Virus record (IMG/VR): IMGVR_UViG_3300030098_003144
Location: 1 to 37,839 of that record
Direction: 5' to 3' (one strand)
Length of the DNA: 37,839 bases
Source: a virus
Part shown: in pieces, positions 1-26,849 of the stretch
How positions within the stretch are numbered: the first letter of the stretch is position 1
Layout: each line of letters begins with the position of its first letter
Translations under genes and position numbers: made by a program
Notes under the pieces: model-generated
Seen by the model: only the letters and a program-made list of their open reading frames with translations
What the model was told of the DNA's origin: nothing
Databases searched by the model: none

Positions 1-127
1 CTCTGCACGCTATCATTGACAGAGGGGTACGGGGGGTCAGTCCGCCTTCAAAACCCATTAATGCCTCAGATAAATTTGCGACCCCTAAGTCGATTTTCTT
101 ATAGAGGGCTTTGGATGTACGAACCAC
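1..127 (-). CDS. Start of an unidentified gene running off the left edge (5' end only)
   Basis: An open frame continues through the left edge. It probably starts at a GTG (125-127) inside the last codons of the giant gene: on the minus strand GGAGGGGG stands 5-8 bases before this GTG. The 42 readable residues begin MVRTSKALYKKIDLGVANL and contain no stop. An alternative start is the in-frame ATG at 56-58, preceded by GAGG. The product is not recognised. Its position directly after the ejection-protein block makes another late phage gene likely. Overlapping the upstream gene by about 29 bases fits the compact style of the region. Too little is visible to exclude a chance open frame. Confidence 0.4.
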   Translation of the reverse strand, partial: MVRTSKALYKKIDLGVANLSEALMGFEGGLTPRTPLSMIACR

Positions 128-15100: not shown

Positions 15101-17288
15101 TATCTGTAATATCTCTGTCACCAAAGTATTCATCAAGTTCATCTCTAAGTACAGCACCAAAGAACTCTGAAGTATCTCCTTTAGGTGAGGTTGTAGTTCC
15201 GTCTTTCTTTTTAGTACCAAAGAAATAAACAAGTACCTCTTGAGCCGTCCAAGTTTTTCCAGCTTTTTTACCACCGGGCTTTCGTTTCTTTCGCTTAGTA
15301 AAATTTTGAGCTATTGCTTCAGCATGTCCTAATAGGAAAGCTTGACCTATAGCCCGTTGCACACCTTCTGAATCTATACCCCTACGTTGTGCTGCAGCCC
15401 CTGCAAGTTTAGCTACTGCCATGATTATATCTAAAGAATCTGTATCAATAGAACTTTTTCCTGAAGAATCTGTTGTTGTGTGTTCTTTTATAATTTTTAA
15501 TAAATCTAATTCAACTTGTTGTAGTTGTTCTATGGTGGGTGTTTCAGGAAATACTACATTACTAAGTATAGATACAATCCCATCCAAGTTTATATCTTTA
15601 CCTTGTATTTTCAAGTTTGCTAATAATCTTGATATACGTATACCTACAATACTACCAGTAACTGCTTGCTTTACAAACCTAAGGTTGTCTTCATTTACTT
15701 TTACAGCTTGAGCTGCAGTTCTAACAGCATCTCTAATTTGAGCAGGAACTACTTTTGGAGTAAATACTTTACTACCTACCCAGGCACCACCACCCACAAC
15801 ACCCATACCAGCTTGTCCAAGTTTGCCCATAGACCACGAGAATGCTGGGTTAATGAATGGTGTAATAGCAGCTTCGCTTAGTGATTGTAGTCCGACAAGT
15901 TTCCAATCATACTCATCTTGCATACCCCATTCAATCTTATTTGCTTGGTTTCTAATTTCAGCCAACCCACCAGTAAGAGCACCTTCGGCTGAGTTAGCAA
16001 GGAATAGGTTTCGACTTAATTTTGTAAATGGGTTGTACCAAGCGGCTTTAACAGCCCCCTTCTTTGTTATTAACCAGTGAGGTAGAGCTGAAGGCAGCCA
16101 TCTAGTAGCGCTTTGAACTTTAGCCATTCGATCTATAATTCTCATTTGTTTATTTAAGTCTAAAGCTCTATCCCCTAGTTTGCTTAACTTACCAGCTAAA
16201 CTAGCTATTAATGCTGCACTTCCTACACCTGCTGTAGCTGCTGTAATAACAAGACCTGCGACCATTTCACCAACCATATCAGGTTCGTTTAGGATACCAT
16301 CCACAACAAATGAATATACACCACCCGCAGCATGTTTCCATGCACCGTTAGTTTTATCACTCCACATAATAGAGTTTCGTGCATAGCTTAGTTGAAGAAC
16401 CATATTAGCCATATAGAACCATTCGTGTTGGTTCCTTGCTTCAGTTACTGTTTCAGGAGTAAGACCTACACTTTCTAGATAAGTCATATAACTAGGATTG
16501 ACTCGTTTCATGTATTCATACATGAACTCTGGATTGTATTCATCAGGTACTTCTAATCCCTCTAAAGTTATATTACCTTCGGCATCACGTTCTTCTGTAG
16601 CAGCTTTAATAGAAAGTTTTTCTTCATCTGTAAAGACATGAGCTTTTACTTTGAATAGTTGGTAAGGTGTATCATACCAGCCACCAGCTTTTGCTATATT
16701 AATATGTCCTGAAATAGGATTATAATAGTCTTCCGAGGATCCGGTAAATCCTTTAGCTATATTTAAATGAGCAAGATCACTGATCCATTGACGTAAGTAT
16801 TGCTCTGTATTAACTATGCTGCCGTCTTCGAGTTCAGCATCTTTATTTGATATATCTAACCAAGTGTCTTCAAGTGTCTGTCGTCCTGCAAACATTAGAG
16901 AAGCTGCTAGGTTTTCGTTCTGGGCGTTCATGCCCCATACACCGCCTGTATGGGCTGCTGCCATCATGATGCGCTTACCCTCTAGTAAAGACAGAGGAGC
17001 CCATTGTAGCTCACCTGTGGCTGTGTCAATGGATGCTGTCATAAAGGGTCTTTGTTCTTTATAGTTTTGCTGCCACTCTTCTACATCAGGAGAACCAATA
17101 TCTTGGAACAATCCTTTTTCGTCACCAAATCTACCACCCCAATCTGATAAAGGTGCAATCTTAAGCTGTTCTTTAAAGAAAGGCATTGTGGTTTGCCTAT
17201 TGTTAGCTATTGCACTAAACAACTGGTCATTGTTGTAGCTAGGAAGGGGTGTTATAAAATCTGCTTCCCCTCTAATAATTGGTTCCAT
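99..17288 (-). CDS. Giant virion-associated multidomain protein (5729 aa): predicted RNA polymerase, PD-(D/E)XK nuclease, DEDDy exonuclease, zinc-peptidase-like
   Basis: One uninterrupted frame of 5729 codons whose ATG overlaps the stop of the upstream gene (TAATG). By eye the order is: membrane-prone segment (about 334-367); basic patch (665-678) and coiled coils (about 700-1000); proline-rich linker (1030-1076); PD-(D/E)XK nuclease (about 1125-1290); more coiled coil (about 1400-1700); single-subunit RNA polymerase signatures (2149-2682); unassigned (2750-3900); DEDDy exonuclease (about 3905-4115); zinc-peptidase-like segment (about 4160-4330); unassigned helical region; and hydrophobic segments near the C terminus (about 5470-5540). 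It is the last gene of the ejection block, so packaging and injection with the DNA are inferred. Phage N4 is known to inject a giant (about 3500 aa) virion RNA polymerase, and phage 'polyvalent proteins' are known to combine nucleases, peptidases and large helical domains. The frame shows no break. The overall role is inferred; individual domains are listed separately. Confidence 0.9.
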   Translation of the reverse strand: MEPIIRGEADFITPLPSYNNDQLFSAIANNRQTTMPFFKEQLKIAPLSDWGGRFGDEKGLFQDIGSPDVEEWQQNYKEQRPFMTASIDTATGELQWAPLSLLEGKRIMMAAAHTGGVWGMNAQNENLAASLMFAGRQTLEDTWLDISNKDAELEDGSIVNTEQYLRQWISDLAHLNIAKGFTGSSEDYYNPISGHINIAKAGGWYDTPYQLFKVKAHVFTDEEKLSIKAATEERDAEGNITLEGLEVPDEYNPEFMYEYMKRVNPSYMTYLESVGLTPETVTEARNQHEWFYMANMVLQLSYARNSIMWSDKTNGAWKHAAGGVYSFVVDGILNEPDMVGEMVAGLVITAATAGVGSAALIASLAGKLSKLGDRALDLNKQMRIIDRMAKVQSATRWLPSALPHWLITKKGAVKAAWYNPFTKLSRNLFLANSAEGALTGGLAEIRNQANKIEWGMQDEYDWKLVGLQSLSEAAITPFINPAFSWSMGKLGQAGMGVVGGGAWVGSKVFTPKVVPAQIRDAVRTAAQAVKVNEDNLRFVKQAVTGSIVGIRISRLLANLKIQGKDINLDGIVSILSNVVFPETPTIEQLQQVELDLLKIIKEHTTTDSSGKSSIDTDSLDIIMAVAKLAGAAAQRRGIDSEGVQRAIGQAFLLGHAEAIAQNFTKRKKRKPGGKKAGKTWTAQEVLVYFFGTKKKDGTTTSPKGDTSEFFGAVLRDELDEYFGDRDITDISEEEITAAWEAIMEKKGKAFADRAMEVLKARQEIVKNLKKTLEEAIDELGIDLNAESLFLDESITNSEVLELRKVEIQDLAIALAEQLTMVKRLLQLRVGRVEKLLEEDLVETIEDISNEVEVAEKLFEKYDVKNWGELLKKIKAKEVDLKALSDDVVVVLSEIKLLDTALLEDPSKYDFTEEELKQEFKAIEHLKELTRIYNQLVLNSDVQAIRTDAQLAPLMQNLDYLFAEVETELGIDIQIPSVKNTGDYKVVILGEVGPDTIPQVRIGSLRILRDGEVEQEGVMSITHIKKTAGGKPGPEPKDPPPPPPPGDDDVPPPPTPPAGDEAPTPPPVDGPKPGAIDVEKFIQELDDAQQVIERVEEIDDEGEDVSYYRNKRTGKVYSRVTKVTKDNTIEPDMELLVQSGGHFGTEIDNIARAILLGEEVRWEDFVNEDGSYIIETEEEFNKLVEGITKYKEKWLREGYIIKADRTFVYDDQAGMAGELDILLIHPETGVIKIVDLKTKRRGGKKTPLHKNSKYVKQRTENHTKQLSAYAILMSNTHGVEIDSISVINIIVEYGDNDFANWTTIETQTSEATVIPKEQQLELRDRVELTEETETGVDVLVKQAMDPNDHAALIEDIKAWIKEEYGEDIDITPTDTSSTPKEPAPINDADTQSVFTTIAFLMKVAKEQGNFKMVKTLERLEARLRWFEENNVDDLPITEKVVEASLNIKALRKSYTEIEAEYFKNKAFKEGMEAERDAEQIAPIIARLVQKQNWLKRTFGKLAPATKGYTWTEVEQKLIDRLGKKYLKKGFPKGIEGDWEAKLYTVRDAILNKKTKLGEAFATAKAKYDKEIDKVHQEELKALQALRREVTKANVLVVQTHGGKWATGLIDTAKDLATAIEEKEASLERAEWLFNRKWEYTVNGVKVVESSLPLSAFESLFGGEHKLNNIRRQLENRHGKKDQYTRDEIEPLFDKMQERKRTQISKMGVGHINMLGKQVSNLAQSIIEADTFVIDQWDPDRPAPIKMTTLERATLMEDEANMVTSSAQTNIEVATALGQYARRLLYTLNSAKWSDAEAIPHWLLKKALPGNIYGFRPELIFKDSLVTADISSHDMLSVTSMEFEIEGVKKTLALLISRLDTNLRQEYAYTAETLRQALNDPDNQHSKYSIYAARKIITMLKNAQIDLNTKAFDQRLIDNKGEAFKIVANKTRSDFTFGDEKKFLEHIHKVANNFIQNYLTDKGQNEFFHNTGINPDSLGDIPLNDLFQGLALFLNVDPATYFIELGNGKEDYASAAELGVGLVQLALRNAPGTIRRIVDKTDPADVEDNWALITDPDGDVRNKVINKDSSDDFDTSRSGNKMLLAPLEGDVQRWAPVEDWTLMRVLEDEIYRNRIKYALNVEITADLKKEWRARTAEEIIGDRHPMHNVGRRVPFRLSPYINNKTPRGEVMDNDQLIEALMELQLDMGPVLEMYIHDAIIGFRKQFRSDEATQSEWFGTGFDVVVPTTSLGRLSALFRLQPHLFSATDTDVTGKPIGHSLMYQIFEQALRIEDKYDTFDDAMDNWNENDQSFAGLHTFWFMDLTWEEMVDNLQGLIQSMSNEDAAGRSQADLDADPEYAGWKVDLIDRYITSGLEWASAVLQSNPDAKLDKFKTLFTALGIDMATTTETRQEIYKRLKKEMKDDPEGKFETVRERLFKPGPLTILYGGGKEAFMNAHNNIQAQEELAKINSDYGLDLTMDDLGNLSEFLYQAGQGEGSQLLRKSMNYSAALKRRVFEQMFVEGGIQVGSKDVRGGVGPGSMQSALDAARSPEAQAELKKLNDALTPEERKFAEFIMRASDAQALLNGRIAAIADLTNKTVEEVESYLGKRLEKVQAFVDEKVNNGEAITDADMERINEMLTGDRMAWRDIQALRAQNLQNSVAHYIDPGVLELQARIMGYDYDPTDLMGLQDHALYFAYARSHDSKRYYQTVFDTMNIHPVNISYSKVATRVEELTQSEAFKIRRDALIAEGVNGDAIQAGTLTRADIEALYGLLTEDGGKAPLGMWNLENNRAYALRDKYFIDDPTKTADERQDAINAWKAEARELIEESLIRDEMLYEAAYGPIATSDYMNGTTVTSKSGEEFEIFSELDAETMYDVIAKRWKESSLLADNEYDQLIQMVRDVEALRKANANEEAELMYRQLLLQINKQVSLPMEVITQVEDLGARIAQERYPSDRKGTAVKRGGDVRNASDLIGLRTANPGGYAGMRPLIKQVSWEQVGSLALREKYYDRLINELEAGFKDNLDLDVDKQEELNDVIPLDQRQDIDIYADSLNEIVFPELDIDEKSSLLSPTKVNVKNHAYRLKTNLDSWAAEVGIEIDGVDKYPTLYYLKELDEMFGFLHSDVVPPANSQNYNIMMGLRTIKEALASELPLEIYKAKFNLLSNLYKLYRISYGIKTRGASHLSLHEEGAAVGIKFIPEAKDGILSYTDMIRSGMTGRNLLQIPLMHGLQGEDYMLLTEDSINAGEYIRSSATVEGTDFMQGIDADMLFVHGADQWGLMDYITEKLETDYHVSEENIKAFREGALSPIISPETGGNKISLEDYTALFLNALQEVHADSISNFDMFLIDTRVQADGTLVPLDIQAATTDKAGKKNVSALVKRSPLATITLRSATIVGERKVIGITPETLMEAINTLSNYKTIEMMEYAVRHGVHVNTRAIERGDGKIQRTAREALSSNLRQKEGFNFTEDRHNEQMLHDAMEFLVEEGERKLKTVGDDQTISGKTSRFLDAEHYITTTTTVKLFPGAKEFDVPVYKAAFLSPVQRILHRLDRYGSRRIHDKIGGMIESEDGLNLLMVLGFMLRNPHVTSQELVVVMPWLTKELTNLENKNDSVFDVVNEFIGRAEGTLEDIKNELMWREMSPDISFHGIPIEPDARGKVGWQGKANPIAMLARSHWENMTEDVGDVDIDDYFRKTFLPFITDMWHSHVKKYYLSKEHAETIKFIETNLDSLGYVAYLDSIETIRMVDKPVGESMKASDSHLTAKDLRWRASQRVTLNAKTLKRLRKKSNLLEEYRGNAYVYPHLVKLLDDIDNITKVKDDKGNVTNDGFIDEIAADALRSAIGYLANVNPEFVIQTRIEKKRMEGLYVGFAQKRDKTEANISFKDLYDTSTEIDENVRDFKNMLLLSGMTRTQIDTLPEFKEGWDTEVDRVVGLDIETNITNNLDLRKISVAAIVQSSDSALEYETFTRRNSKGDQWLTEKQAKEILNELERLQNEGVKVATFNGNSFDLLTLGKIAKADSQAARIALRSFDAMQILKYSNTTRADVHRARLSLANSARAFEAGEKFGTSAEAAVLQDISLGLEPNVPEGMNEETYNKILEDYGTAEEAEARLMEYVVNDTMITANLLVKLIQKRQGDDSLVTIRSSYRQPAAIEVNVQEVNQSWNVGKEAGQMPRSMVEWNGRGIAMPKTVNIKGDPTNDPGYFIGLDHRKLRQADTASAIEVLFHELSEIAILKYMNENSAAWSNLVAELRRPENLELLNKLVKQSEGNKSNLATGMKMAYFTDTSKPNELVAAFTQYYLAARVLGDPRGTISEEIQEIRSSGFFKHLKKFMGDVFGWIRDQFQGMAHIFVDYMDESPREFDHLMTMLDAVMGIDAEGVRMPDVGNLAGDARFTKLFDNEEPFELRKYDTSVLGKGEELMTDEQYLELVDDKQEVTEQLNRLRLKYGDSDPATWTTADENLYSQYIAQEVNLDNMLKNHGYAKGDKDSPEQFGRHIWGLTRQEQVEAEAIINEEFLHPTAHKTSNVDYAGKAIIRSGDTTLMAAFAYMITKNMSEHFGGRYNQGIGGALRNFGKQSELIGSVLEGIKGHVLLSSSGAQYTYNSPYTAAVLMSNLLVEGSILTSNSILPSNSGIISGAAAQRRSSAMAKAIDATWIQDVANPFKLSKMYKETLDPEAKARLVATLQEDVIRRIIDKKYDLSKYDGDVAQGISALADEYNAFIRDMFELNRKLGNYYADPNKMELIPWSTKLFSDGHVDIARDTSIRDALHKKLIDKVKKETNQIHPVYLYAANLLPRANDLKNNLRSMQKDNPMWFDFILERAFVNYKKITGRRTLSRTEFLNDSMTYITDPEPLHSGSNLERGSRLSQAWIMVTTDLLTNNEVLNWKDVFDHKKGVAEHTDEIKRIKSVVYKKTIDGDNRYAGGSEANLRQTLQELRKINELGDSNINGYYLDPSQIINTEYNSVASYLTDAFLHRISNKAFFVYDNTFIPMVSEVLDDVGVKEFIELNPAVLADNIAKTHGHDVHEVDAFSEITRTDLNYQDLLNLFSNITNARSGIRVTDGQGRSLERTEQAKLHTSFNEVLRRKYVVLKGVASRYGDGGGDPTLAHAAPYTNDIIKSVYGTNLAFASSFVEGSMAGLVHTIGYDGIKNLLIPVISYLKPLSKNYDSKVARDMLYSLRLAKQEDMPGMDDLDAGHQFLSDTGTGTAGWMNKWAGKVTRHAQRVNQELRAQIDLVQRNAIMDLYQGGQWMAMVRMIASDEEVAAYEADPKKWVKQEQARVNAHNAAIDAHNAKPENKDNKIPEINKLTARTKPGFEVSKGEFVSMEKLLQDEKTSWKLWKKLAAASGWGKGRKSKWRLAMIMAQNGLMTPQAIAAFGEMDSGARTMNTAEAGEHYFHLFRMRQWAQTKRDSSKKGVTPVKHKARMDLYYNMRNALQMQVETIITAPNVMDLNVGSEALSQILHQYRTYPMLFTSQRLIRDASKYDGYTFTIKLVTNLMLDMVYSIITMMAGGYHWEDMIDDLENDTGSFVALLGSRLPMFGLYGAMVMEIMGALYIGKRPEAVSPISLAGFINYITGTASGLKGLAMGDWGDDTQKNLINALRIFPYIGETLVRLGLHSAIRTGNMRGSFSKYGGNSNKEFTTMGVDPSMLQGNPRIMMEDFVMELFPGRFPDDLEKEDFATYAGVRNAIDNLPDRQAAQPLLPQETAPSQTSPGPIVPSEPRGSSLRAPEDIGGGMGGSYIQSPL
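609..896 (-). other. Membrane-prone C-terminal region of the giant protein
   Basis: Residues about 5465-5560 hold two hydrophobic stretches: LVTNLMLDMVYSIITMMAGG at about 5470-5490, and a second at about 5510-5540 that contains FGLYGAMVMEIMGALYIG. The long helical C-terminal part with paired hydrophobic segments resembles the terminal 'large polyvalent protein-associated' domains (LPD38 type) of phage giant proteins. That name is a resemblance, not a confirmed hit. Membrane contact during injection is inferred. Confidence 0.4.
4299..4811 (-). other. Domain in the giant protein: zinc-metallopeptidase-like, HExxE variant
   Basis: Residues about 4160-4330, starting about 60 residues after the exonuclease. 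A helix reads EVLFHELSEIAIL (H4207, E4208, E4211), where zinc peptidases normally have HExxH. About 65 residues on, NELVAAFTQYYLA (E4272) looks like the usual third-ligand helix. It is followed by FFKHLKKFMGDVFGWI, which resembles the helix that closes such domains in phage and mobile-element polyvalent proteins. The second histidine is replaced by glutamate. E4211 could still bind zinc, or the domain may be inactive. The call rests on the pattern of helices and these motifs. Confidence 0.5.
4944..5576 (-). other. Domain in the giant protein: DEDDy 3'-5' exonuclease (DnaQ / PolB-exonuclease type)
   Basis: Residues about 3905-4115. Exo I reads VVGLDIETN (D3915, E3917). Exo II reads FNGNSFDLL, fitting N-x3-F-D (N3984, D3989). 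Exo III reads YVVND (Y4096, D4100), the Y-x3-D form that defines the DEDDy branch. All four acidic residues and the tyrosine are present with normal order and spacing (about 70 and 111 residues). The closest familiar relatives are the proofreading exonuclease of family B DNA polymerases and the stand-alone 'PolB-like exonuclease' families. No DNA polymerase domain was recognised next to it, so a proofreading role is not supported; nucleic-acid trimming or degradation is more likely. Confidence 0.85.
9039..11441 (-). other. Domain in the giant protein: single-subunit RNA polymerase of T7/N4-virion type (predicted)
   Basis: All four family signatures occur in the correct order. The T/DxxGR-like box reads HNVGRRVPF (R2149). 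Motif A reads DTDVTG (D2246), matching the D-x3-[ST]-G start of the family, then IGH after a two-residue insertion. Motif B reads KPGPLTILYGGGKEAF (K2416, T2421, Y2424, G2425), matching T7 KRSVMTLAYGSKEFGF at K, T, Y, G, K, E and the final F. Motif C reads ARSHDS (H2681, D2682). Spacings are 97, 170 and 266 residues. T7 has 112, 94 and 181; N4 mini-vRNAP, as I recall its residues (R424, D559, K670, D951), has 135, 111 and 281. The long B-to-C gap is closer to N4. Domain borders are rough. The weakest points are the first two boxes; motifs B and C are the strongest. Confidence 0.68.
13419..13916 (-). other. Domain in the giant protein: PD-(D/E)XK nuclease, Cas4/RecB-like
   Basis: Residues about 1125-1290, directly after the proline-rich linker. 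Visible signatures are GGHFGTEID (H1141, E1145), AGELDILLI (E1217, D1219), a following strand IKIVDLKTK (D1234, K1236) and TKQLSAY (Q1264-x3-Y1268). The D, then D-x-K, then Q-x3-Y order is that of metal-dependent nucleases of the Cas4/RecB/AddB exonuclease group. All catalytic positions look intact. In this family the acidic residues bind the metal ions that cleave the DNA backbone. Cleavage of host or competitor DNA after injection is an inference. The domain lies about 860 residues before polymerase motif R2149. Confidence 0.82.
14060..14201 (-). other. Proline-rich linker in the giant protein
   Basis: Residues 1030-1076 contain 23 prolines, including one run of seven and one run of four, mixed with Gly, Asp and Glu. 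The segment separates the coiled-coil N-terminal part from the PD-(D/E)XK nuclease. A stiff, unstructured spacer of this kind marks a domain boundary and supports treating the two sides as independently folded units. Confidence 0.9.
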
Positions 17289-20200
17289 TAATCAGTTTCC
17301 TTTTTCATTCTAACTAGTTTATATTGTCCTTCGGGAACAAAGTCGTACCATTTACCGTGCTGATAAACTGCGCTTCCTTTTTTATTACCAGGATCATGGT
17401 ATTGATACATAGGTCTGCCTGCATGAAAGCCTCTAAGATCTATCCATAGACCTTTAGCTATAAGATCTTTATGTTCTGTTGCAGTCCAGTATGAATATCC
17501 TTTCTGTTCTTGTTCTTTATTTATAGCATCAACATCTATATTACCAAAATCGGCATCAGTTACAGTCATCCATGGTATGCGTACAGTAAGTATACCATCT
17601 TCCTCGGAAACACCTTCAGTAAAGCCCATCATACCTTCAGCCTGCAGCTCTACCATTCTTTCTACCTTCATCTTTAGACTAGGATTACTACGGATTCCAC
17701 GAACTTCATTACTAATTGCATTAGTCATAGTATCCATATCCCAACCAATATCATCCAAATCCCCATACTCATCGATGTAACGATCAGCAAACAGACCAAG
17801 TTCTTTAAGATGTTTAGGTATGGTTTCTGGGTCTAAGTCATACTTTTCAGGATTTATTGTAAGCTCTCTAACAACCTTAAGATGTGTCTCTGCTAGACCC
17901 ACTTCTTGGGATTGTGGATTTTCTTTTTGAAACTCAAAAGATTCTTTTCTTACTACTTCATACGCCTGCATAACATTAGCTTCAGTAAGTCCCCCTACCT
18001 CTCCAGTAGCAATTAGATTATTAAAGTTTCTTTTTACAATACCGCTTGTTAAAGCTTCTCTTTCATTGCTAGTTAGGGTTATCTCAGAAGCCACAGATGT
18101 TCCAAGTCTAGGGATATTAACCCATGCATCTAAGGTTGTTTCTTTAGCATCTTTAGTTTCTGTAGGCATTAGCCATCTAGTAAAGTTTGAGGTAGGAACT
18201 ATTTCAAAATTGAGCATACCACTTTCAGACATAGACATTGGAACTGGAAGACCTGCTGCTGAGTCTTGGAATGCGTCATATAATCTAAAGGCAGCTCTTA
18301 GATCCATTGCTCTGCCTTGAGCACTGCCTATAGCAGCTGCAGCAAAAGCACCCTTTAGTTGGTTTCTAGATTCAGGAGTTGCTAACATAATCTGCATAGC
18401 ATACAATAAGGCTGTTTCATATTGTTGTACTGGTTCACCCGCTGACCCCAACCAGAGAGTAAACAAACCCGGTTGATCTGTATTATGTGTATAATCATCT
18501 AGATCCGGCATAGCTTTCTGGACTATCTGACCAACATGAGTATCCTTTACTGCTAACCAGATATCTCGTACAATAGCATCAGACTTATTAGCATTGATAC
18601 CAGTGGTCCTCCACTCTTCTCTTCTTGCTACACTTTCCTCATCGTTAGGCAGTAAGAAAGCTGCTGCTTTTACAAACTCATCAATACCACCTCTCAACGC
18701 CACCGTTAATTGTTGTCTTTCTTCTTCAGTAGCAGAAAAGTCAGTCGTATTCAAAACCATTTCTAATGCCTGTGTTGGTACCCAGGTATTATCTATCCTT
18801 CCATTCATAGCCAAGATAGAGTCTACTACTTCATTAGGAACTCCTGCAGCATTAAATCCTGATTTACCTTCAAGTCCTGCTATAATAGATCCAGCTGTCA
18901 TGATGTCTATAATTTCTTGAGGAGTTGTATTGATAATAGACATTGCGTCATTAGGATCTAAAGATGCCCAGTCACCGCCAGATGCTTGGTCTAGTTTATC
19001 TAAAATCATATCCAAAGCCATGCCTTGTAGCATACCACCACCCGCATCATCTAATATACCTGACCACAATACCCAGTTACCTGTTTTCTCTGCACCGTTT
19101 TTTAGACCCATTAAGAATCTGCCTATACCACCCATTGTTTCTGGAATCTCTCTACTCCAAGTTTTTATATGAGATAGCCCCCTCTTAACCTGTGTAACTA
19201 GATTTGCATCTGTCCGTGCAGATGGATTATTACTAATTGCTTCGGCATATTGCATTCCTATAAACTCAGCCCAGTTACTATCAGCAAATACATCCATTGC
19301 GCCTGTTCTTGTTAGCTCAACCATTCCATCAAAGTTTGCATAGCTAGCTTTAAATGTTGTAATATCTTCTTCAGTAGCACCTGCAGCTAATAGTTGTTCT
19401 GACTTTAGATTAATAAAGTCTGTCCATGCTTCAGACATACCGTTATACTCTTGCCAAAAAGCTGTATACTTATGTGGTTTATTCATTAATTCTTGCCATG
19501 CTTCTGGCGATACACTAACACCAAGCAACACTTGAGAAGCTGCAGCTTTTGTAGGATCATGAGTAATACCTTTAAGCTGTCCTTGAGTTGCTTCCTCTAC
19601 ATTTTCAGCTTCTGTTTCAGCAGCACCTCCTCCAGCTCCAGCAGGATCAATTGCCCTTTCTGAAACATAGTCATACATATCTAACAACCATCTTTCTTGA
19701 TGACGTGTAAGACCCCCGGTGAAAAATGATGTGGTTAACTTACCCCATGCTTCGTATTCAGTTCCATACTTTTCGTTGAATGTTTCTAAAACGGATTGTT
19801 TGTACTCGTCTAAAGTGAATTGACGAAGATCCACTCTATTCATCAATACGTCTACAACACCTCTTGCAGCAGATAAGGCTGCAGTTCTTTCTTCTTTAGT
19901 TTTTGAAGCTAACTCATGTAGAATAGGTAGAGGTGAGTCTTTACCTAATATCTGTTCAAAACGGTCTATAGGTTGATCAGGGTCTACTTCTTCTGGTACT
20001 TCTTCTGGTTCTGTAGCTGCAATCTCTGCTTGAACTTGGGCTTGTAAGTCCTCTAATTGTAGCCAATCAATATTATCTACATTCGTAGCGGTAAGGGATC
20101 TGTTACCTAAAGTAGATCCTATTATAGAATCTAACCATTTAGGGTTTGTTTTCATTAGCTCTGCTATATCTTCTTCAGTTAAAAATTTAAATACTTCCGG

Positions 20201-21151
20201 GCTAGGTTCTTGGGGAGTAGGTTCTTGATCAGCATAGTAATCTAGGTTAGTAAACGGACCGTAGTCTTTTTCAAGTTTATCAACAAACGTTGGTGACAAC
20301 CCAGCCATCAACAAGTCTTCATTAGTCCAGTTATAATGCTTCTTTAGTTTTCCCATACCCATCATAGCAACAGCTGGAGATGAGTCTTTAATAACCTTAA
20401 CTAAATCCATAGACTTCATCCTAGCATCATTCGCTTCTCTATTTCGTAAGCGATCTTTATCTACAGAACTTACTTCGTTGTCTTGAATACCAAGCATTGT
20501 ATTGAATACTTCTATAATAGTAGAGTGATCTGCCTCTTCCCCATTTGCTTGAGCACCTTTAATATAAGCTGCACGTAATTCTGGTAGGGTTTCCCATAGC
20601 TGTTCTATTCTTCCCTCATGGTTTGGAATAGCTTTTAATGATTCCACTACAGCTCTTTCGTCTCCTCCTAGATCAGAAAAAGCTAACACTTGATCAATAA
20701 ACTTATTCATCCAAGCAGGAGAAGGTTCATATCCACGATCTGTTTCAATAAGATCATCACCTCTATTAAGAGCCCTGTGTGTCAAATTCTTTATTCTGTT
20801 GTAAACAATTAACTGAGCTTCGTCTTTTTGTTCTTGAGTAAATTCTTTTCTTTTAAAGGTTTTAGTTGTCCAGTCCCACTCTAAACCATGTCTTTCTTTA
20901 TTGACTCTTCTTAGTTCTTTCCATGCTGTAAAGTCATAACCTTCTGAATACTCCTCAACCGAAGGAATATCCATTGGAGGTGTTTTGAAGAGACCCGTTT
21001 CAATATCCATTTCCATAAGATATTCATCTTCTTTTCCTGTCCATGTTTTATAATATCCAAGATCTTCTAAGTTTTCTGTCTCTTCTACCATACGCTCCCA
21101 AGTAGCTTTACGCTCCTCAATAGGCATGTCCATAAGTTCTTTAGGTAACAT
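17288..21151 (-). CDS. Internal virion (ejection) protein, 1287 aa, gp16 position
   Basis: A 1287-residue, largely helical and acidic protein with no recognised catalytic domain. Its length is close to T7 gp16 (1318 aa), and it sits late in the ejection block, just before the giant gene, whose ATG overlaps its stop. A strong GGAG lies just before the ATG. A Gly/Ala/Glu-rich linker near residues 500-517 and an acidic, proline-containing stretch near residues 390-400 separate putative domains. No transglycosylase active site like that of T7 gp16 was seen. In T7 such proteins form the trans-envelope channel for DNA entry; that role is inferred here from position and size only. It could also be a separate co-injected protein. 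Confidence 0.7.
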   Translation of the reverse strand: MLPKELMDMPIEERKATWERMVEETENLEDLGYYKTWTGKEDEYLMEMDIETGLFKTPPMDIPSVEEYSEGYDFTAWKELRRVNKERHGLEWDWTTKTFKRKEFTQEQKDEAQLIVYNRIKNLTHRALNRGDDLIETDRGYEPSPAWMNKFIDQVLAFSDLGGDERAVVESLKAIPNHEGRIEQLWETLPELRAAYIKGAQANGEEADHSTIIEVFNTMLGIQDNEVSSVDKDRLRNREANDARMKSMDLVKVIKDSSPAVAMMGMGKLKKHYNWTNEDLLMAGLSPTFVDKLEKDYGPFTNLDYYADQEPTPQEPSPEVFKFLTEEDIAELMKTNPKWLDSIIGSTLGNRSLTATNVDNIDWLQLEDLQAQVQAEIAATEPEEVPEEVDPDQPIDRFEQILGKDSPLPILHELASKTKEERTAALSAARGVVDVLMNRVDLRQFTLDEYKQSVLETFNEKYGTEYEAWGKLTTSFFTGGLTRHQERWLLDMYDYVSERAIDPAGAGGGAAETEAENVEEATQGQLKGITHDPTKAAASQVLLGVSVSPEAWQELMNKPHKYTAFWQEYNGMSEAWTDFINLKSEQLLAAGATEEDITTFKASYANFDGMVELTRTGAMDVFADSNWAEFIGMQYAEAISNNPSARTDANLVTQVKRGLSHIKTWSREIPETMGGIGRFLMGLKNGAEKTGNWVLWSGILDDAGGGMLQGMALDMILDKLDQASGGDWASLDPNDAMSIINTTPQEIIDIMTAGSIIAGLEGKSGFNAAGVPNEVVDSILAMNGRIDNTWVPTQALEMVLNTTDFSATEEERQQLTVALRGGIDEFVKAAAFLLPNDEESVARREEWRTTGINANKSDAIVRDIWLAVKDTHVGQIVQKAMPDLDDYTHNTDQPGLFTLWLGSAGEPVQQYETALLYAMQIMLATPESRNQLKGAFAAAAIGSAQGRAMDLRAAFRLYDAFQDSAAGLPVPMSMSESGMLNFEIVPTSNFTRWLMPTETKDAKETTLDAWVNIPRLGTSVASEITLTSNEREALTSGIVKRNFNNLIATGEVGGLTEANVMQAYEVVRKESFEFQKENPQSQEVGLAETHLKVVRELTINPEKYDLDPETIPKHLKELGLFADRYIDEYGDLDDIGWDMDTMTNAISNEVRGIRSNPSLKMKVERMVELQAEGMMGFTEGVSEEDGILTVRIPWMTVTDADFGNIDVDAINKEQEQKGYSYWTATEHKDLIAKGLWIDLRGFHAGRPMYQYHDPGNKKGSAVYQHGKWYDFVPEGQYKLVRMKKETD

Positions 21152-21159
21152 TATATCTC

Positions 21160-23013
21160 CTATGCGTTCATCAGATCACTTGTGTGATTTGAGTGATGTG
21201 CTTTCCTGTGTATTATATGGTTTTTATTTTGTTCACCCCAAGTAGGATCTTCGAAAATTTTATCTAGTTCTTTTATAGTTCCTTGTATAGCTTCAAATCT
21301 TTCTGGTCCTTCAATGTATATGTTTGTAGTTTCATTCCACTCTTTAAAATCTTCCCAATTTATAGGAGCCGTTTTATCTTCTAGTGACATGATATAACGA
21401 TCTATAGCTTCTCTTAAAAAGGCACCCCGTTCTGTAGTTTGATCATGGTACTCGTTGCTCCTGATATCTTTGGTTCGTCGTTTAATTTTTTCCAGATCGC
21501 CTTCTACTACTTCTTCTTGTAAAAGGTGAACAAGTTCGTGAGCCAATGTCTCTATTGGATCCAAAGCTTTTTCGCTAAGAGCAAAGAATAGTGGGGTATC
21601 TCCAAGCAATAAATCTTTACCACCATATTTTTTGTCTACCGAAACTAACTTTTCATCCCTACCTAGAACTGTATCCTTTCTCCTGGTATCTAGTCCTATA
21701 TCACCCCTGTGACTGATGTCATCGTCAGGAATCCATCCTTGAATACCAGCTGTACCTAAATCATGTCGATGCTCTTTTTTAAAATCTGTATCCTCTAGTT
21801 CTGCATAAAATATTCTATGTGGATCATCGGGATCTACTTGATGGTCTATCCATGGGTGTTCACCCACATTCCATGGAGTATCCGATACTCTTAATTTTTC
21901 TGTATCATCTACTGACTCTAAATTTCTAGTTATAGAAATAGTAGTGTTGTCATACCACCTATCACTGCGAGGAATTACCGCAATATGAACGTCTGGATCA
22001 TAATTAGATGATAGCTCTTTGCCCCAAAGCAAATCTATATATTCCTTGTATGGATTATTTGCTTGGATAGGGTTTTCTGCTTGTCTAAGGAGTGCTAGGT
22101 CATATTCGTTTTGCTCCATTCCCATATTCAACATTCTTATCTGAGAAGCTTTCATGTAAGGAAGTTCATTAACGTCCCAAGCTGCGTCAAGACTATTTGC
22201 AAGTAGACCAGAATATTGGTTTTGTATTCCATCTTGCAACTCAGTCCGTAATGTGTAAGCTATATCGCTTGCATCTTTGTAAGCATTAGAAAAGGCAGCA
22301 TACTCTTTCCTAATCCATTTTTCTCTGTCTTTACGAACTGCCGGATCATCTATATCAGATAATTCTTTTAAACGATTACCCATTTCGGTTGCTGTTTTAA
22401 GTAGATCCATTGCATGCTTGTCTGCCTCGTGATACTTTTTCTTTATTTCGAGTATTTCAGGAGTATACTTAGGTATAGGTATAAGTCTACCTTGGTCTCC
22501 AACTACCCTTAATGCATTGCTTAATTCTATATTTCTTTCTTCTTTAGATAATGAACTGATTCGGTGGTTATTTATTATAATCTCGCCACTCTGTATACGC
22601 TTAACTGTTTCCTCATCATAACCTTCTAACCCTGTTGTAAAGCCAGTACCACTAGGCAAAGGGGTTTTTTCTCTAGGATACGTAAATACATCACCCGTTA
22701 AGACTGTGCTTAAACCACTAGCTAGAGGTACTTGAACAAGGGTACCAATACCTGGCTGCTCCCCCTTTTTTAGATTGTTCAGTTCCCGGAACTCTTCTAC
22801 AGATAAACCAGATGCTTGAGAAAGCTTCCAAGTGGTATCGCCTTTGTGTACTACATAATCTCCATGAGTAGGCTCTGAAGGTTTAGTACCATAGGTTTCG
22901 ATTCTATTATGTATCTCTTTTAGATTATGTATATTATTTAAATCTTCGTTTCGAAGCGAATCATTTATATTATGTAATATAGGATTAGTAGTATGTTTAA
23001 ATTCAGGATCCAT
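21160..23013 (-). CDS. Internal virion protein with LysM domain and HExxH zinc metallopeptidase
   Basis: A 617-residue protein. A LysM peptidoglycan-binding domain occupies about residues 53-96 (GDYVVHKGDTTWKLSQ, then NNLKKGEQPGIGTLVQVP). A zinc-peptidase helix reads LAHELVHLLQ (H492, E493, H496), and TERGAFLREAID further on offers E528 or E535 as third ligand. The middle (about 170-480) is helical and then polar, with no family recognised. The start overlaps the upstream stop by one base. In the ejection block, a LysM plus peptidase suggests a virion enzyme that binds the cell wall and cuts peptide cross-links or a protein substrate during DNA entry. The substrate is unknown. Confidence 0.8.
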   Translation of the reverse strand: MDPEFKHTTNPILHNINDSLRNEDLNNIHNLKEIHNRIETYGTKPSEPTHGDYVVHKGDTTWKLSQASGLSVEEFRELNNLKKGEQPGIGTLVQVPLASGLSTVLTGDVFTYPREKTPLPSGTGFTTGLEGYDEETVKRIQSGEIIINNHRISSLSKEERNIELSNALRVVGDQGRLIPIPKYTPEILEIKKKYHEADKHAMDLLKTATEMGNRLKELSDIDDPAVRKDREKWIRKEYAAFSNAYKDASDIAYTLRTELQDGIQNQYSGLLANSLDAAWDVNELPYMKASQIRMLNMGMEQNEYDLALLRQAENPIQANNPYKEYIDLLWGKELSSNYDPDVHIAVIPRSDRWYDNTTISITRNLESVDDTEKLRVSDTPWNVGEHPWIDHQVDPDDPHRIFYAELEDTDFKKEHRHDLGTAGIQGWIPDDDISHRGDIGLDTRRKDTVLGRDEKLVSVDKKYGGKDLLLGDTPLFFALSEKALDPIETLAHELVHLLQEEVVEGDLEKIKRRTKDIRSNEYHDQTTERGAFLREAIDRYIMSLEDKTAPINWEDFKEWNETTNIYIEGPERFEAIQGTIKELDKIFEDPTWGEQNKNHIIHRKAHHSNHTSDLMNA

Positions 23014-23576
23014 TATCTCATTCCTTGTTGTCTAAAAGCTCTAGCTTTCAGTATTTCCATAAGTTCTTTTCGTTCTTCTTCGGTAAGTTCATCACTAGTA
23101 TCTTCAATATATTTTACCATAAACTCATCCACAGCTAACCTAACTTCTTCTTTAGCCTTCGGATCTGCATCATCACTTTGTAAACTTTGAATATATTCTA
23201 CAACAGATCCAGCTTCTTGCAGATTTTCTATACCGATTAGTTTTCCTTGAAGTTCGTTTATTATCCTTGCACCGTTTTTCTTTTCAAGATCGTCCTTCTC
23301 TTTCTGTGTTCTTTTCGCAGCTTCTGATTTTACAAGCTCCGCACCAGCTTCTAATATACTTTGACGAAGAACAGTAGACATCTTATAATCAGCAGCAGCT
23401 TGGGAATTTTCCACACCACTTATCTGACCTTCTGAATTTTTATTTAGTTGGTTAGTATCTGTGTCTCTGAATCGTGGGTCTGTTTCTGTAAACTTAGCGT
23501 TAACTATGTTTACTTCTTGCGACATATCAGGTAGTTCTAGAGGTCTTACATCTTGTCTTTTTTGTTGCGGTCGCAT
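23013..23576 (-). CDS. Ejection-block protein of unknown function (187 aa)
   Basis: A short, highly charged, helical protein rich in Glu, Lys and Gln, with no signal peptide or membrane segment. It is linked to both neighbours by one-base stop/start overlaps, so translation is probably coupled. No family was recognised. Its position between the gp14-like protein and the LysM-peptidase suggests a structural or assembly role in the internal core. The gp15-type core protein of T7 may be represented by this gene together with the upstream 320-residue gene, but no sequence evidence for that is visible. Confidence 0.75.
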   Translation of the reverse strand: MRPQQKRQDVRPLELPDMSQEVNIVNAKFTETDPRFRDTDTNQLNKNSEGQISGVENSQAAADYKMSTVLRQSILEAGAELVKSEAAKRTQKEKDDLEKKNGARIINELQGKLIGIENLQEAGSVVEYIQSLQSDDADPKAKEEVRLAVDEFMVKYIEDTSDELTEEERKELMEILKARAFRQQGMR

Positions 23577-24538
23577 TATAGAACACCTCTCTTATAGATA
23601 TTAGATACTAATTGCCCAGCTATTCTAGCCATAGCTCTAGGTTTATCTTGGATATTAGTGGAATCTTTAAACTTCTTTAATCCTTTCTCAACCACACCTT
23701 TAGTTTCTACATCTCTGTAGTCTAACATGTTTGCCATTACAGGAGCCACATCATCAATAGACAATGTATCAAGATTAGCGAATAAAGACTCATCAACCTG
23801 CCTTTTACCTTCAGAAGTAATACTTCTAGCGATATCCAAATGAGGTTTAACAGCTCTTTGAATAGGTTTAAAACTATTTACCTGTACCGCATACTGTTCG
23901 GCAGCATCAGGACCTTGATCATTTACGGTTAGGTTCTGCCCTACGACATACTTGCCAGTATCATCTTTTATAGAAACTCTGCCATTAACAATCTCAGCTT
24001 CTCCTAGTTTATTCATTCTTTCTAATACTGAGATATCTTTTATATGCTCATACTCAGGTGCTAAAGCATCTAAGGTTTTGCTTGGATCGCTAAATAGCTT
24101 TACTAAAGATTCTTCTAATGCTTTAGAATGTGAGATAGTACTCTTATGTGCAAAGTCTGTTGTAATATATTCCTGCAATTGGGTAAGCTTAGGCATATAG
24201 TGATTAGCCACATCATCATTCTCAACGCTATTTACATTCTGTAGAACAAACAGCTTATCCATAGGTGAATAGGCTTCACTTAACTTAGCATCTATCTCTT
24301 GCATTCTGTAGGCGTTAAACTTTTCCCTAGGTAATCCAGATAAAGCTTCGTAAGTATCATTATATACTGTTCTGTTTTCAGGAGTAATATCAAAAGGTAC
24401 AAACTCTAGCCAGTCTCTAAGAATATTATCACCCTGATAACCTTTAATCCATTCATTACTTCTCTGTACTTGAAGATCAGTATAGTTTTTATTTACTATA
24501 TCTGAAACAGATTTCTTTTTTATAAAATCCATACTCAT
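23576..24538 (-). CDS. Ejection-block protein of unknown function (320 aa)
   Basis: A soluble, mostly helical protein with no signal peptide, membrane segment or catalytic motif that I can name. Its ATG overlaps the stop of the gp14-like gene and its stop overlaps the next start, so it belongs to the same translationally coupled operon. By position it could be part of the internal core or ejectosome (T7 gp15 region), but at 320 residues it is far shorter than T7 gp15 (747). Confidence 0.75.
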   Translation of the reverse strand: MSMDFIKKKSVSDIVNKNYTDLQVQRSNEWIKGYQGDNILRDWLEFVPFDITPENRTVYNDTYEALSGLPREKFNAYRMQEIDAKLSEAYSPMDKLFVLQNVNSVENDDVANHYMPKLTQLQEYITTDFAHKSTISHSKALEESLVKLFSDPSKTLDALAPEYEHIKDISVLERMNKLGEAEIVNGRVSIKDDTGKYVVGQNLTVNDQGPDAAEQYAVQVNSFKPIQRAVKPHLDIARSITSEGKRQVDESLFANLDTLSIDDVAPVMANMLDYRDVETKGVVEKGLKKFKDSTNIQDKPRAMARIAGQLVSNIYKRGVL

Positions 24539-25164
24539 TATGTGTTCGCCTGATAATAAGAACCTGCAACAGCCATAGTTGTTTGTCCAATACCTGACAT
24601 AAGAGCACTGCTATATGCTTGGCTTGGGCTTTGACCATAGTATTGACCTGGTGTGATTTCAGAAATTTTAGTAAAGCCAAAGTCACGCATGTTCAATGTC
24701 TTTTGATACTCATCATCAATAAGACCTTTCTCTAGCGCTGAGTTTACATTGACAGTATCTCTTGCTTTGTGATAGTTACTCATTGCATTCCTAAGCATAG
24801 CTTTAGAAGTAGCTGAGTTAGAGTTCATACGTCCTGCTAGTTGTCCTTGCAGATCACCATAAGCTTTGAACATACCATTAGACATTTGAGACATAGTATT
24901 ATTAGTACGTTCCCGTTGCCAATAACGATTCTTTTCTCTAATCTTTAGAGCTTCTTCACCTATTGCCTGGTTTCTAGCCCACTTCTCCTCTTCTTCTAGA
25001 AGTTGGAACCATGTAGCATTAGCCCAATCTTTGGCTCTAAGTACTTCACTTTCTCTCCACTTGGCTATGTTCAGTGCTGCTTGTTGTTTTGCTGCTCTTG
25101 CTCCTGCTATGGATGATAGAACACCACCTACTGCTTGCATTGCTAATGCGCCTGTTACTGCCAT
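24538..25164 (-). CDS. Internal virion protein, T7 gp14-like (208 aa)
   Basis: Size is close to T7 gp14 (196 aa). The N terminus has a small-residue, membrane-prone stretch (ALAMQAVGGVLSSIAGARAA, residues 6-25) followed by a long helical region rich in Ala, Glu, Arg and Asn. This is the usual look of the smallest ejection protein, which in T7 forms the outer-membrane part of the channel. A strong site (AAGGAGGTAAACC) precedes the ATG. It is the first gene of the ejection block, directly after the large terminase gene. The assignment rests on position, size and composition. Confidence 0.7.
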   Translation of the reverse strand: MAVTGALAMQAVGGVLSSIAGARAAKQQAALNIAKWRESEVLRAKDWANATWFQLLEEEEKWARNQAIGEEALKIREKNRYWQRERTNNTMSQMSNGMFKAYGDLQGQLAGRMNSNSATSKAMLRNAMSNYHKARDTVNVNSALEKGLIDDEYQKTLNMRDFGFTKISEITPGQYYGQSPSQAYSSALMSGIGQTTMAVAGSYYQANT

Positions 25165-25175
25165 GGTTTACCTCC

Positions 25176-26849
25176 TTACCAATATCTTTGATTTGTTTTA
25201 AATGGGTTACGTTTCCGGGGCATATCTTCTCTTAAGACCGCACCAGAAATTCTTTCACCAAGAAGACCGAATATCCTATCATTAGATAGCCACTCTTTAA
25301 CTACTTCCTGGTGCTTCTTATTTTCATTCTGTTGAATAACCTGATCAACGTCAATACTCATGTTGTCATACCAGAATTTAACAGAGGCTGATAGGACATC
25401 TACACGGTCATCTCGTGGCAACGCACCTCGTGCGTCATGAAGCCGTGTGAGCTGTCTTTGGGTTTCTTCGTTCACGATAGCCTTTCGGTTAAAGACAAGC
25501 CTGTGCTGGGCTAATACGGGCTCTAAAGCCTCAAGCATACGAGCTTCCTTCTGCCCAGCCACTCTGTACTCTTCAATTCCTACCTTATGACCGCAAGATG
25601 AAGCCACAACGGGAGCCAAAAGCTGTCCAAACATAGCATCACCGAAGTTACTTTCGACATGTATGTTCTTTATTTGGTATTCATTAGCTAATTTGGCTAT
25701 CTTGGTGAGGACTGCCTTATTGTAGCCCCCATCAAGACCTATTAAATCATGGATAAATATGTATCCGTTCGCAAATGAACTAATACAGACAGCTGTTTCG
25801 TCTGTACCACGACCTGACGGGTCTATAAACATAGCTGTGTGTAGATAGTCTGTATAATTATCCGAGATCCACATGGGTTCATAGATAATATCACCCGCCA
25901 TTCCAAATGATGGGACTCTTTTCATAGGTGTAGAAGAAGCCCATATGATTTTCTCAGGACAGATCATAGGATCTACGTCAATTACCAGTAGATCTGCTAA
26001 TCTTAAAGGATACTTCTCTGCATCTGCAAGAGATGTGTCTAGCTTATAATGTAAAGCAAATAATCTAGGACCGATCTTAGCTTTTCTTCCCTCTAATACT
26101 TCTTCACTAAACCTCTCAGGCTGAGTAGGTTCGCCAGCTTCCCCTTGTAACTGCCATACCCAACTATTGACATTCTCACATTCGGACTCATTGTTCTTGT
26201 CTGGTATAACTGCGGGAAACTTTGTAATAGGATAACCTTCAGCTAGTGTATTGTAGATAGAGTCCCTAATCTGAGGTGTACCTAAGAACAAAACTCGACC
26301 ACCTACGTTACGTATCTGTTCAAACTCTGACACTTTGTTTAACAATTTCTCCCTAGCATTGGCTGTTTCACAATTACCCTCAATCTCTACGTCATCTGCT
26401 ATAACATACTCAGCGTGACTACCTGTAATTTGAGAGGATATACCTCGGGCAAAACAGGATTTATCCTGACCCATCTTAGTACGACACTCTACATTAAAAC
26501 CAAATGCATTATCTGTTGTATGATCCCCTGGTCTCATGTGTTCACAGTAAGGGACAAGGTCTAAGATTTTTCTAGTCATGCTAATAAACTCCGCAGCCTT
26601 GTTACTGGTAGCGGATACAACCATGATAGTAGTGTTAGGATCCTTTAGTAAGAACCAAGAAGCTAAGCAAGCTGTGATAACTGACTTACCAAAGCCACGA
26701 CCAGCCTGTAGCTGCATATCCTCAGGTCCTTCTTGTAGAGCGTCAGCCATAGCGTACTGCGCAGGTGTAGGTTCACCTATACCCATATACTTAAAGCACG
26801 CCCACATGTGATTGCGAAAGTCTTCAAGCATTTCTTCTGGTATATTCAC
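25176..26849 (-). CDS. Terminase large subunit (packaging ATPase and nuclease)
   Basis: 557 residues, close to T7 gp19 (586). The Walker A box is GRGFGKS (50-56) and Walker B reads YVIADDVE (148-155). A coupling-type motif FLGTPQ follows at 188-193. The RNase H-like nuclease half has IDPSGRGTDETAV (D343), VESNFGD (E399) and DRVDVLSA (D484), the three acidic positions expected for the metal site. It pumps phage DNA into the prohead and cuts concatemers, acting with the small subunit. The start is GTG, overlapping the upstream TAG by one base. Three genes upstream is the candidate small subunit. Confidence 0.95.
   Translation of the reverse strand: MNIPEEMLEDFRNHMWACFKYMGIGEPTPAQYAMADALQEGPEDMQLQAGRGFGKSVITACLASWFLLKDPNTTIMVVSATSNKAAEFISMTRKILDLVPYCEHMRPGDHTTDNAFGFNVECRTKMGQDKSCFARGISSQITGSHAEYVIADDVEIEGNCETANAREKLLNKVSEFEQIRNVGGRVLFLGTPQIRDSIYNTLAEGYPITKFPAVIPDKNNESECENVNSWVWQLQGEAGEPTQPERFSEEVLEGRKAKIGPRLFALHYKLDTSLADAEKYPLRLADLLVIDVDPMICPEKIIWASSTPMKRVPSFGMAGDIIYEPMWISDNYTDYLHTAMFIDPSGRGTDETAVCISSFANGYIFIHDLIGLDGGYNKAVLTKIAKLANEYQIKNIHVESNFGDAMFGQLLAPVVASSCGHKVGIEEYRVAGQKEARMLEALEPVLAQHRLVFNRKAIVNEETQRQLTRLHDARGALPRDDRVDVLSASVKFWYDNMSIDVDQVIQQNENKKHQEVVKEWLSNDRIFGLLGERISGAVLREDMPRKRNPFKTNQRYW

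Follow-up and report, generated by a model that had tools for sequence, protein, structure and literature searches.

The window, by which we mean the whole 37,839-base virus record analysed here, comes from a T7-like phage known solely from environmental DNA. The minus strand carries its assigned late genes, which in gene direction encode a head-assembly protein, the major capsid protein, two tail proteins and a long fibre-like protein, followed by a small-terminase-like gene, the large terminase gG, and then gF, gE, gD, gC, gB and gA (Table 1). The block terminase-gF-gE-gD-slot-gB-gA, in which gC fills the slot, recurs among related contigs, which were gathered by terminase scans and comprise at least 80 loci. 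The slot is empty in many of these relatives, where gD is followed directly by one long protein and then by gA; in L023 it holds a protein of 430 aa that has neither LysM nor HExxH. Gene order and size, and these alone, suggest that the gC block occupies an 'ejection position'; no search matched gF, gE, gD, gC, gB or gA to T7 internal virion proteins.

Table 1. Genes of the late block and features of gC, with positions in the window
Feature	Position	Strand	Basis
gG, large terminase subunit, T7 type	25176..26849	-	PF22530 E 4.5e-34; PHROG 38 E 2.9e-90
gF, 208 aa, conserved block gene	24538..25164	-	block comparison with relatives
gE, 320 aa, conserved block gene	23576..24538	-	block comparison with relatives
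gD, 187 aa, upstream neighbour of gC	23013..23576	-	39% identity over 85 residues to same-slot L018 gene
gC, LysM and HExxH protein, 617 aa, ATG start	21160..23013	-	ORF, Pfam, motif count
gC LysM domain, residues 53-96 (Pfam match 53-84)	22726..22857	-	PF01476; six-frame match 22741-22857; sister alignment
gC long helical stretch, residues 185-278	22180..22461	-	first AlphaFold model, block pLDDT 69-86 only at about residues 191-250
gC C-terminal zincin-like region, residues 281-617	21163..22173	-	common to L018, more weakly to L012
gC HELVH, residues 492-496	21526..21540	-	motif count, shuffles
gC E528, favoured third zinc ligand (E-x-G-A)	21430..21432	-	aligned in gC, L018 and L012
gC E535, second ligand candidate	21409..21411	-	absent from L012
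gB, 1287 aa, candidate ejection protein, downstream of gC	17288..21151	-	L018 homologue E 7e-16
gA, giant, 5729 aa, candidate ejection protein	99..17288	-	29-40% identity to L019 giant over most of its length

A sequence-only reading of this DNA had placed a LysM domain and a HELVH zinc-peptidase motif in one protein, and both are indeed present in gC. The LysM domain matches PF01476 with E 1.2e-7 and 32 bits, above the cut-off of 20.9, and scored 33.3 bits in a six-frame scan of the window record. HELVH is the sole HExxH among the listed window proteins. A bare HExxH is weak evidence, because composition predicts 0.087 such motifs in gC and 0.27 across all window proteins. The surrounding TLAHELVHLL (residues 489-498) fits the extended zinc-protease pattern, which we take to be PROSITE PS00142; 5 of 2000 shuffled versions of gC reproduce this pattern, as do 18 of 2000 for the whole set of window proteins, and one further match, in an L044 giant, was found among 614 ORFs.

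The sole close copy of gC lies on the L001/L003 sister contig (88% identity), which stops at residue 443, before HELVH. When viral contigs were scanned, gC matched one contig, its catalytic part and gB matched none, and the gF profile returned nothing new. Relatives of gC were found in 22 phage records, with every match confined to the LysM part.

The same-slot protein of L018/L019 is 689 aa long, carries LysM at residues 48-88 (E 1.5e-5) and resembles gC in its N-terminal part (E 6e-5). The genes flanking the slot match those of the window on both sides (gD, 39%, E 3e-15; gB, E 7e-16), and because of this synteny we regard the L018 protein as the orthologue of gC. The arrangement of LysM and a zinc-type site is kept in the orthologue: near its C-terminus stands GHEIGGHG...HEIGAEWSEA, with HExxxH where gC has HExxH, about as far from the end of the protein as in gC. 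When the last 178 residues of gC were aligned with their L018 counterpart, 2 of 2000 shuffles reached the observed score; for a longer region, 13 of 1000 did. The corresponding site in the orthologue gives the zinc site of gC stronger support than the bare motif does; the HExxxH itself may be a variant or an inactive site.

A third carrier of the motif is a 2481-aa protein of L012/L016, in which HEGFHVMQ...NPREWGA, from residue 2115, is followed by a lysozyme domain (2302-2472). Its similarity to the L018 protein was reached by 9 of 1000 shuffles. Compared with gC directly, the L012 protein scored no better than shuffles (292 of 2000 and 528 of 1000 reached the score), and direct homology of gC and L012 was dropped as a certain relation; the two are likely related by way of L018, to judge from the L018-L012 similarity. 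Scans of viral contigs with the L012 and L018 regions recovered only these regions and their duplicates, and a search of phage records with the L018 protein and with the L012 zincin region gave no match.

In a three-way alignment gC, L018 and L012 have in common the H, E, H and Q of the site and the E-x-G-A that follows. The earlier reading had named E528 or E535 as the third zinc ligand, to be decided by structure prediction, and both residues lie where it put them. The models were too poor to decide (mean pLDDT 34.5 for full-length gC, AlphaFold from two sequences; 37.9 for residues 281-617, predicted from four sequences), and it is the alignment that favours E528: the corresponding Glu is kept in gC, L018 and L012, whereas that of E535 is present in gC and L018 only, so E528 is the better candidate. 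This comparison aligns E528 in three proteins of which only gC and L018 are well supported as homologues, and gC and L012 are not. The combined motif was found only in gC, L018, L012 and their duplicates among the 614 ORFs (342,302 residues), and was written after seeing these three proteins.

Searches for a known family gave the C-terminal region no name. Pfam assigned gC nothing but LysM up to E 1, and the C-terminal region of the three members matched no Pfam peptidase family up to E 10, the one match being ANTH (E 0.27). A profile of the zincin region matched PDB entries only at E 0.044 or above, all unrelated proteins; those of clostridial neurotoxin light chains (E 1.1 and 1.3) spanned 29 profile positions round the motif and were taken as chance. 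The zincin profile matched nothing in a scan of genome contigs, and Foldseek found no match for the model of residues 281-617. MPTase-PolyVal (PF18818) was matched in none of 18 records up to E 10, and PhageMetallopep (PF18894) had no match in gC, with weak matches below the cut-off in the gA proteins of both the window and L019 (the 18 records were picked from loci in hand, not at random). Neither Pfam nor the PDB profile search placed a peptidoglycan-peptidase family on gC. In low-confidence models only, HExxH and the conserved Glu are predicted on helices; the models were too poor to bring out the zincin core of a three-stranded sheet with two helices C-terminal to it. The zincin assignment of the C-terminal part is thus drawn from the motif, its context and its retention, and from neither a family match nor a reliable model.

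Could the HELVH region be non-catalytic, that is, a structural domain with a chance or decayed motif, so that gC merely tethers the channel to the wall through LysM? The change from HELVH to HEIGGH in L018 would fit this, as would the lack of a family match or a usable model for the C-terminal region and a high ratio of replacement to silent changes in gC residues 144-443. The rarity of the extended pattern in shuffled gC and the alignment of H, E, H, Q and E-x-G-A across three divergent proteins argue in the other direction, and we consider this explanation quite improbable.

Between the window and L003, gC residues 1-443 differ by 68 replacement and 22 silent changes, compared with about 75 and 107 in gD, gE, gF, gG and gK pooled (Fisher P 8e-8). 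The corresponding dN/dS is 0.82 for gC and 0.07-0.31 for gD-gG, the gC value covering residues 1-443, with the catalytic part lying beyond the end of the sister contig. Such fast change would suit a host-facing protein; it could equally reflect relaxed constraint. As a separate observation, the shared late gene with the lowest identity between the window and L003 is the fibre-like gJ (27522-31646; 77%, against 88% for gC and 93-99% for the others).

Wall modules were surveyed in 25 records, picked from loci in hand and not at random, with tests for lysozyme, LysM, Amidase_2, SLT and M15_4. Six sister proteins went into the lysozyme profile, which hits T4 lysozyme in a PDB search (E 1.1e-10). 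Lysozyme was found in five of the 25 records (L012, L036, L062, L071 and L073) and LysM likewise in five (the window, L003, L019, L036 and L073), while 17 had neither by these searches; SLT (PF01464), Amidase_2 and M15_4 (PF13539) were each matched in none. LysM without lysozyme occurs, among the 25 records, only in the window, in L003, which ends before the zinc motif, and in L019. The window has no SLT and no lysozyme-profile match, which bears out the earlier statement that no transglycosylase domain was seen here. The 68.5-kb L019 record has no lysozyme-profile, Amidase_2, SLT or M15_4 match. None of these four stood among the best 25 of 37 Pfam and the best 25 of 51 PHROG families for 40 L019 proteins, or in ten unassigned L019 proteins scanned in full.

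All other LysM proteins found in related loci (L011, the L070/L072/L073/L074 group, L026 and L036) carry a lysozyme domain; L026 and L011 do not belong to the 25 records. In L036 a 1907-aa protein in the gB slot (L036:13918-19641) ends in LysM (1676-1719) and lysozyme (1747-1901), and the LysM-lysozyme cassette of L026 is homologous to this C-terminus (36% over 250 aa), indicating that wall modules move between carriers in the block. Among 23 non-redundant blocks with a terminase and a detectable gA homologue, a set that excludes the window, L003, L012, L071 and L072/L073, two have lysozyme and two LysM, one of them both, so that any recognised module is present in three. The proposal that the wall opener of the block is always a lysozyme, which gC replaces, was ruled out, since most of these sister blocks have no recognised module. 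The L023 slot protein (residues 265-430; L023:14634-15131) and the C-terminus of the L073 lysozyme-LysM protein (residues 921-1077; L073:14413-14886) are homologous (36%, E 8e-26), which links the post-terminase lysozyme gene to the gC slot.

One explanation of gC is that it is a virion-associated wall hydrolase, in which LysM binds glycan and the zinc peptidase cuts stem or cross-link peptides, replacing the lysozyme of some relatives. LysM in phage proteins usually accompanies peptidoglycan enzymes, and this counts in its favour. So does the company that LysM keeps in related loci, where it comes with lysozyme except in the gC/L018-type records (3 of 25). Neither the window nor the L019 record yielded a lysozyme-profile, Amidase_2, SLT or M15_4 match, which also fits; the absence of a recognised hydrolase, however, says little, because LysM and lysozyme were both missing from 17 of the 25 records in these searches. 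gC, on the other side, matches no peptidoglycan-peptidase family, and to our knowledge hardly any HExxH zincin is known to cut peptidoglycan, which counts against it. L012 has the zinc motif and lysozyme together, so the protease is not its only wall tool. Published work points both ways: PMC8954989 describes hydrolase domains that swap between ejection proteins, and PMC6116005 gives endopeptidase domains of virion lysins as almost exclusive to phages of Gram-positive hosts. Wall hydrolysis by gC, the main alternative to the reading that we prefer, seems to us rather unlikely on this evidence. Its evolutionary version we regard as unlikely: in a T7-like clade, a peptidoglycan peptidase of the HExxH clan, guided by LysM, would have taken over in the ejection machine from the enzyme that cuts glycan and would open the wall by cutting its peptides, a sister phage carrying the HExxxH variant.

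It is also conceivable that gC is mainly a lysis enzyme, an endolysin, and not an entry protein. Endolysins commonly join LysM to a catalytic domain, which speaks for this, and no other recognised endolysin was found in the L019 record. gC, however, lies between block genes and beside two giants, outside any recognised lysis cassette, and its hydropathy, at most 1.27 over 19 residues, points to no strong membrane or signal segment. Related LysM-lysozyme or lysozyme modules are fused to long proteins (1907 aa in the gB slot of L036, 2481 aa in L012), and in L023 the slot is held by the protein lacking both LysM and HExxH. We consider an endolysin very improbable.

The reading that we prefer, tentatively and at somewhat less than an even chance, is that gC would be a LysM-tethered, zincin-type protease delivered with the ejection set and cutting a protein at the wall, in the manner of the metallopeptidases found in polyvalent phage proteins. 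gC would be released together with the other internal proteins, and its N-terminal LysM would dock it on the glycan of the host wall. The C-terminal part would act as a zincin-type metalloprotease, with H492, H496 and E528 as ligands and E493 as the base. Held at the wall, gC would trim or unlock the phage's own giant ejected proteins, gA and gB; alternatively, it might remove a host envelope protein that blocks the channel. We infer the presence of gC in the virion, its zinc binding, its protease activity and its substrate.

The motif of L012, followed by a domain of the T4-lysozyme type, resembles the fusions of MPTase and lysozyme in polyvalent proteins that PMC5512222 describes. That paper defines the MPTase by HExxH on one helix and a Glu on the next, describes large phage proteins that can join it to lysozyme, and proposes protein processing as its role. 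For N4, the preprint PMC12633501 reports an HExxH motif in the virion RNA polymerase, an ejected giant, and ejection proteins that appear to have no wall enzyme. Like the polyvalent MPTases in P1 DdrB and the N4 virion RNA polymerase (PMC5512222, PMC12633501), gC has HExxH followed by a conserved Glu and lies beside giant late proteins, and in L012 the site lies within one, fused to lysozyme. It differs in that it has no PF18818 match, carries LysM and is a small separate gene, and in the HExxxH of L018.

Of the two functions that the sequence-only reading had offered, wall opening by peptide cleavage fared poorly, given the lack of a peptidoglycan-peptidase family match, the motif and lysozyme side by side in L012, and the protein processing proposed in PMC5512222. 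The second function, in which the presumed substrate is a protein at the wall, agrees better with these results than wall-peptide cleavage does.

Wall passage by short-tailed phages is known in detail for few, T7 above all. gC is comparable with the N-terminal transglycosylase of T7 gp16, as characterised in PMC8954989, in being a candidate wall tool in a candidate ejection block of a phage with a T7-type terminase, and in having mosaic carriers of hydrolase domains; it differs in its chemistry, in being a separate LysM protein, and in that no SLT or lysozyme was found in the window. With the sister proteins that combine T4-type lysozyme and LysM (L026, L036, L011 and L073) it shares the clade, the gene block and a LysM adjoining a catalytic domain, which is lysozyme in those proteins and the zinc motif in gC. 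With LysM endolysins and autolysins (for example, the LytE match) it shares LysM, whereas the catalytic domain is unrelated by any search here.

The pairing of domains in gC appears real and unusual, and the combination would be new as far as the searches reach, with parts of known kinds. For many HExxH domains of phage polyvalent proteins we know of no demonstrated substrate. Purifying and testing a LysM-zincin protein that is small and separate is far easier than doing so with a giant of 3000-6000 aa, and a protein of the gC type could settle whether such domains cut the wall, a phage protein or a host protein. The literature searched yielded no LysM-zincin ejection protein, and the term 'LysM' is missing from the main texts of PMC5512222, PMC6116005 and PMC8954989; this does not prove that none has been described.

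Several further features were seen in the giant gA. Residues 1143-1301 (13386-13862, minus strand) form a stretch resembling PD-(D/E)XK nucleases (PDDEXK_1, E 0.057), which is also similar to a region of 'RNA-polymerase subunit' proteins of crAss-like phages (best E 3e-4). The stretch at gA residues 1070-1292 corresponds to residues 3549-3768 of the L019 giant, indicating that the nuclease-like module moved within the giant. Around residue 4207 (4647-4760, minus strand) gA has HELSE and, downstream, NELVAAF, the counterparts in the L019 giant being HEVME and TELIAAF; PhageMetallopep matched the HELSE area weakly, below its cut-off (E 2.4e-4 for one genome). This gives the phage a second zincin-like site, of the HExxE type. 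Around residue 3915 (about 5530-5550, minus strand) stands LDIET, which by eye suggests that a DnaQ-type 3'-5' exonuclease domain may start here.
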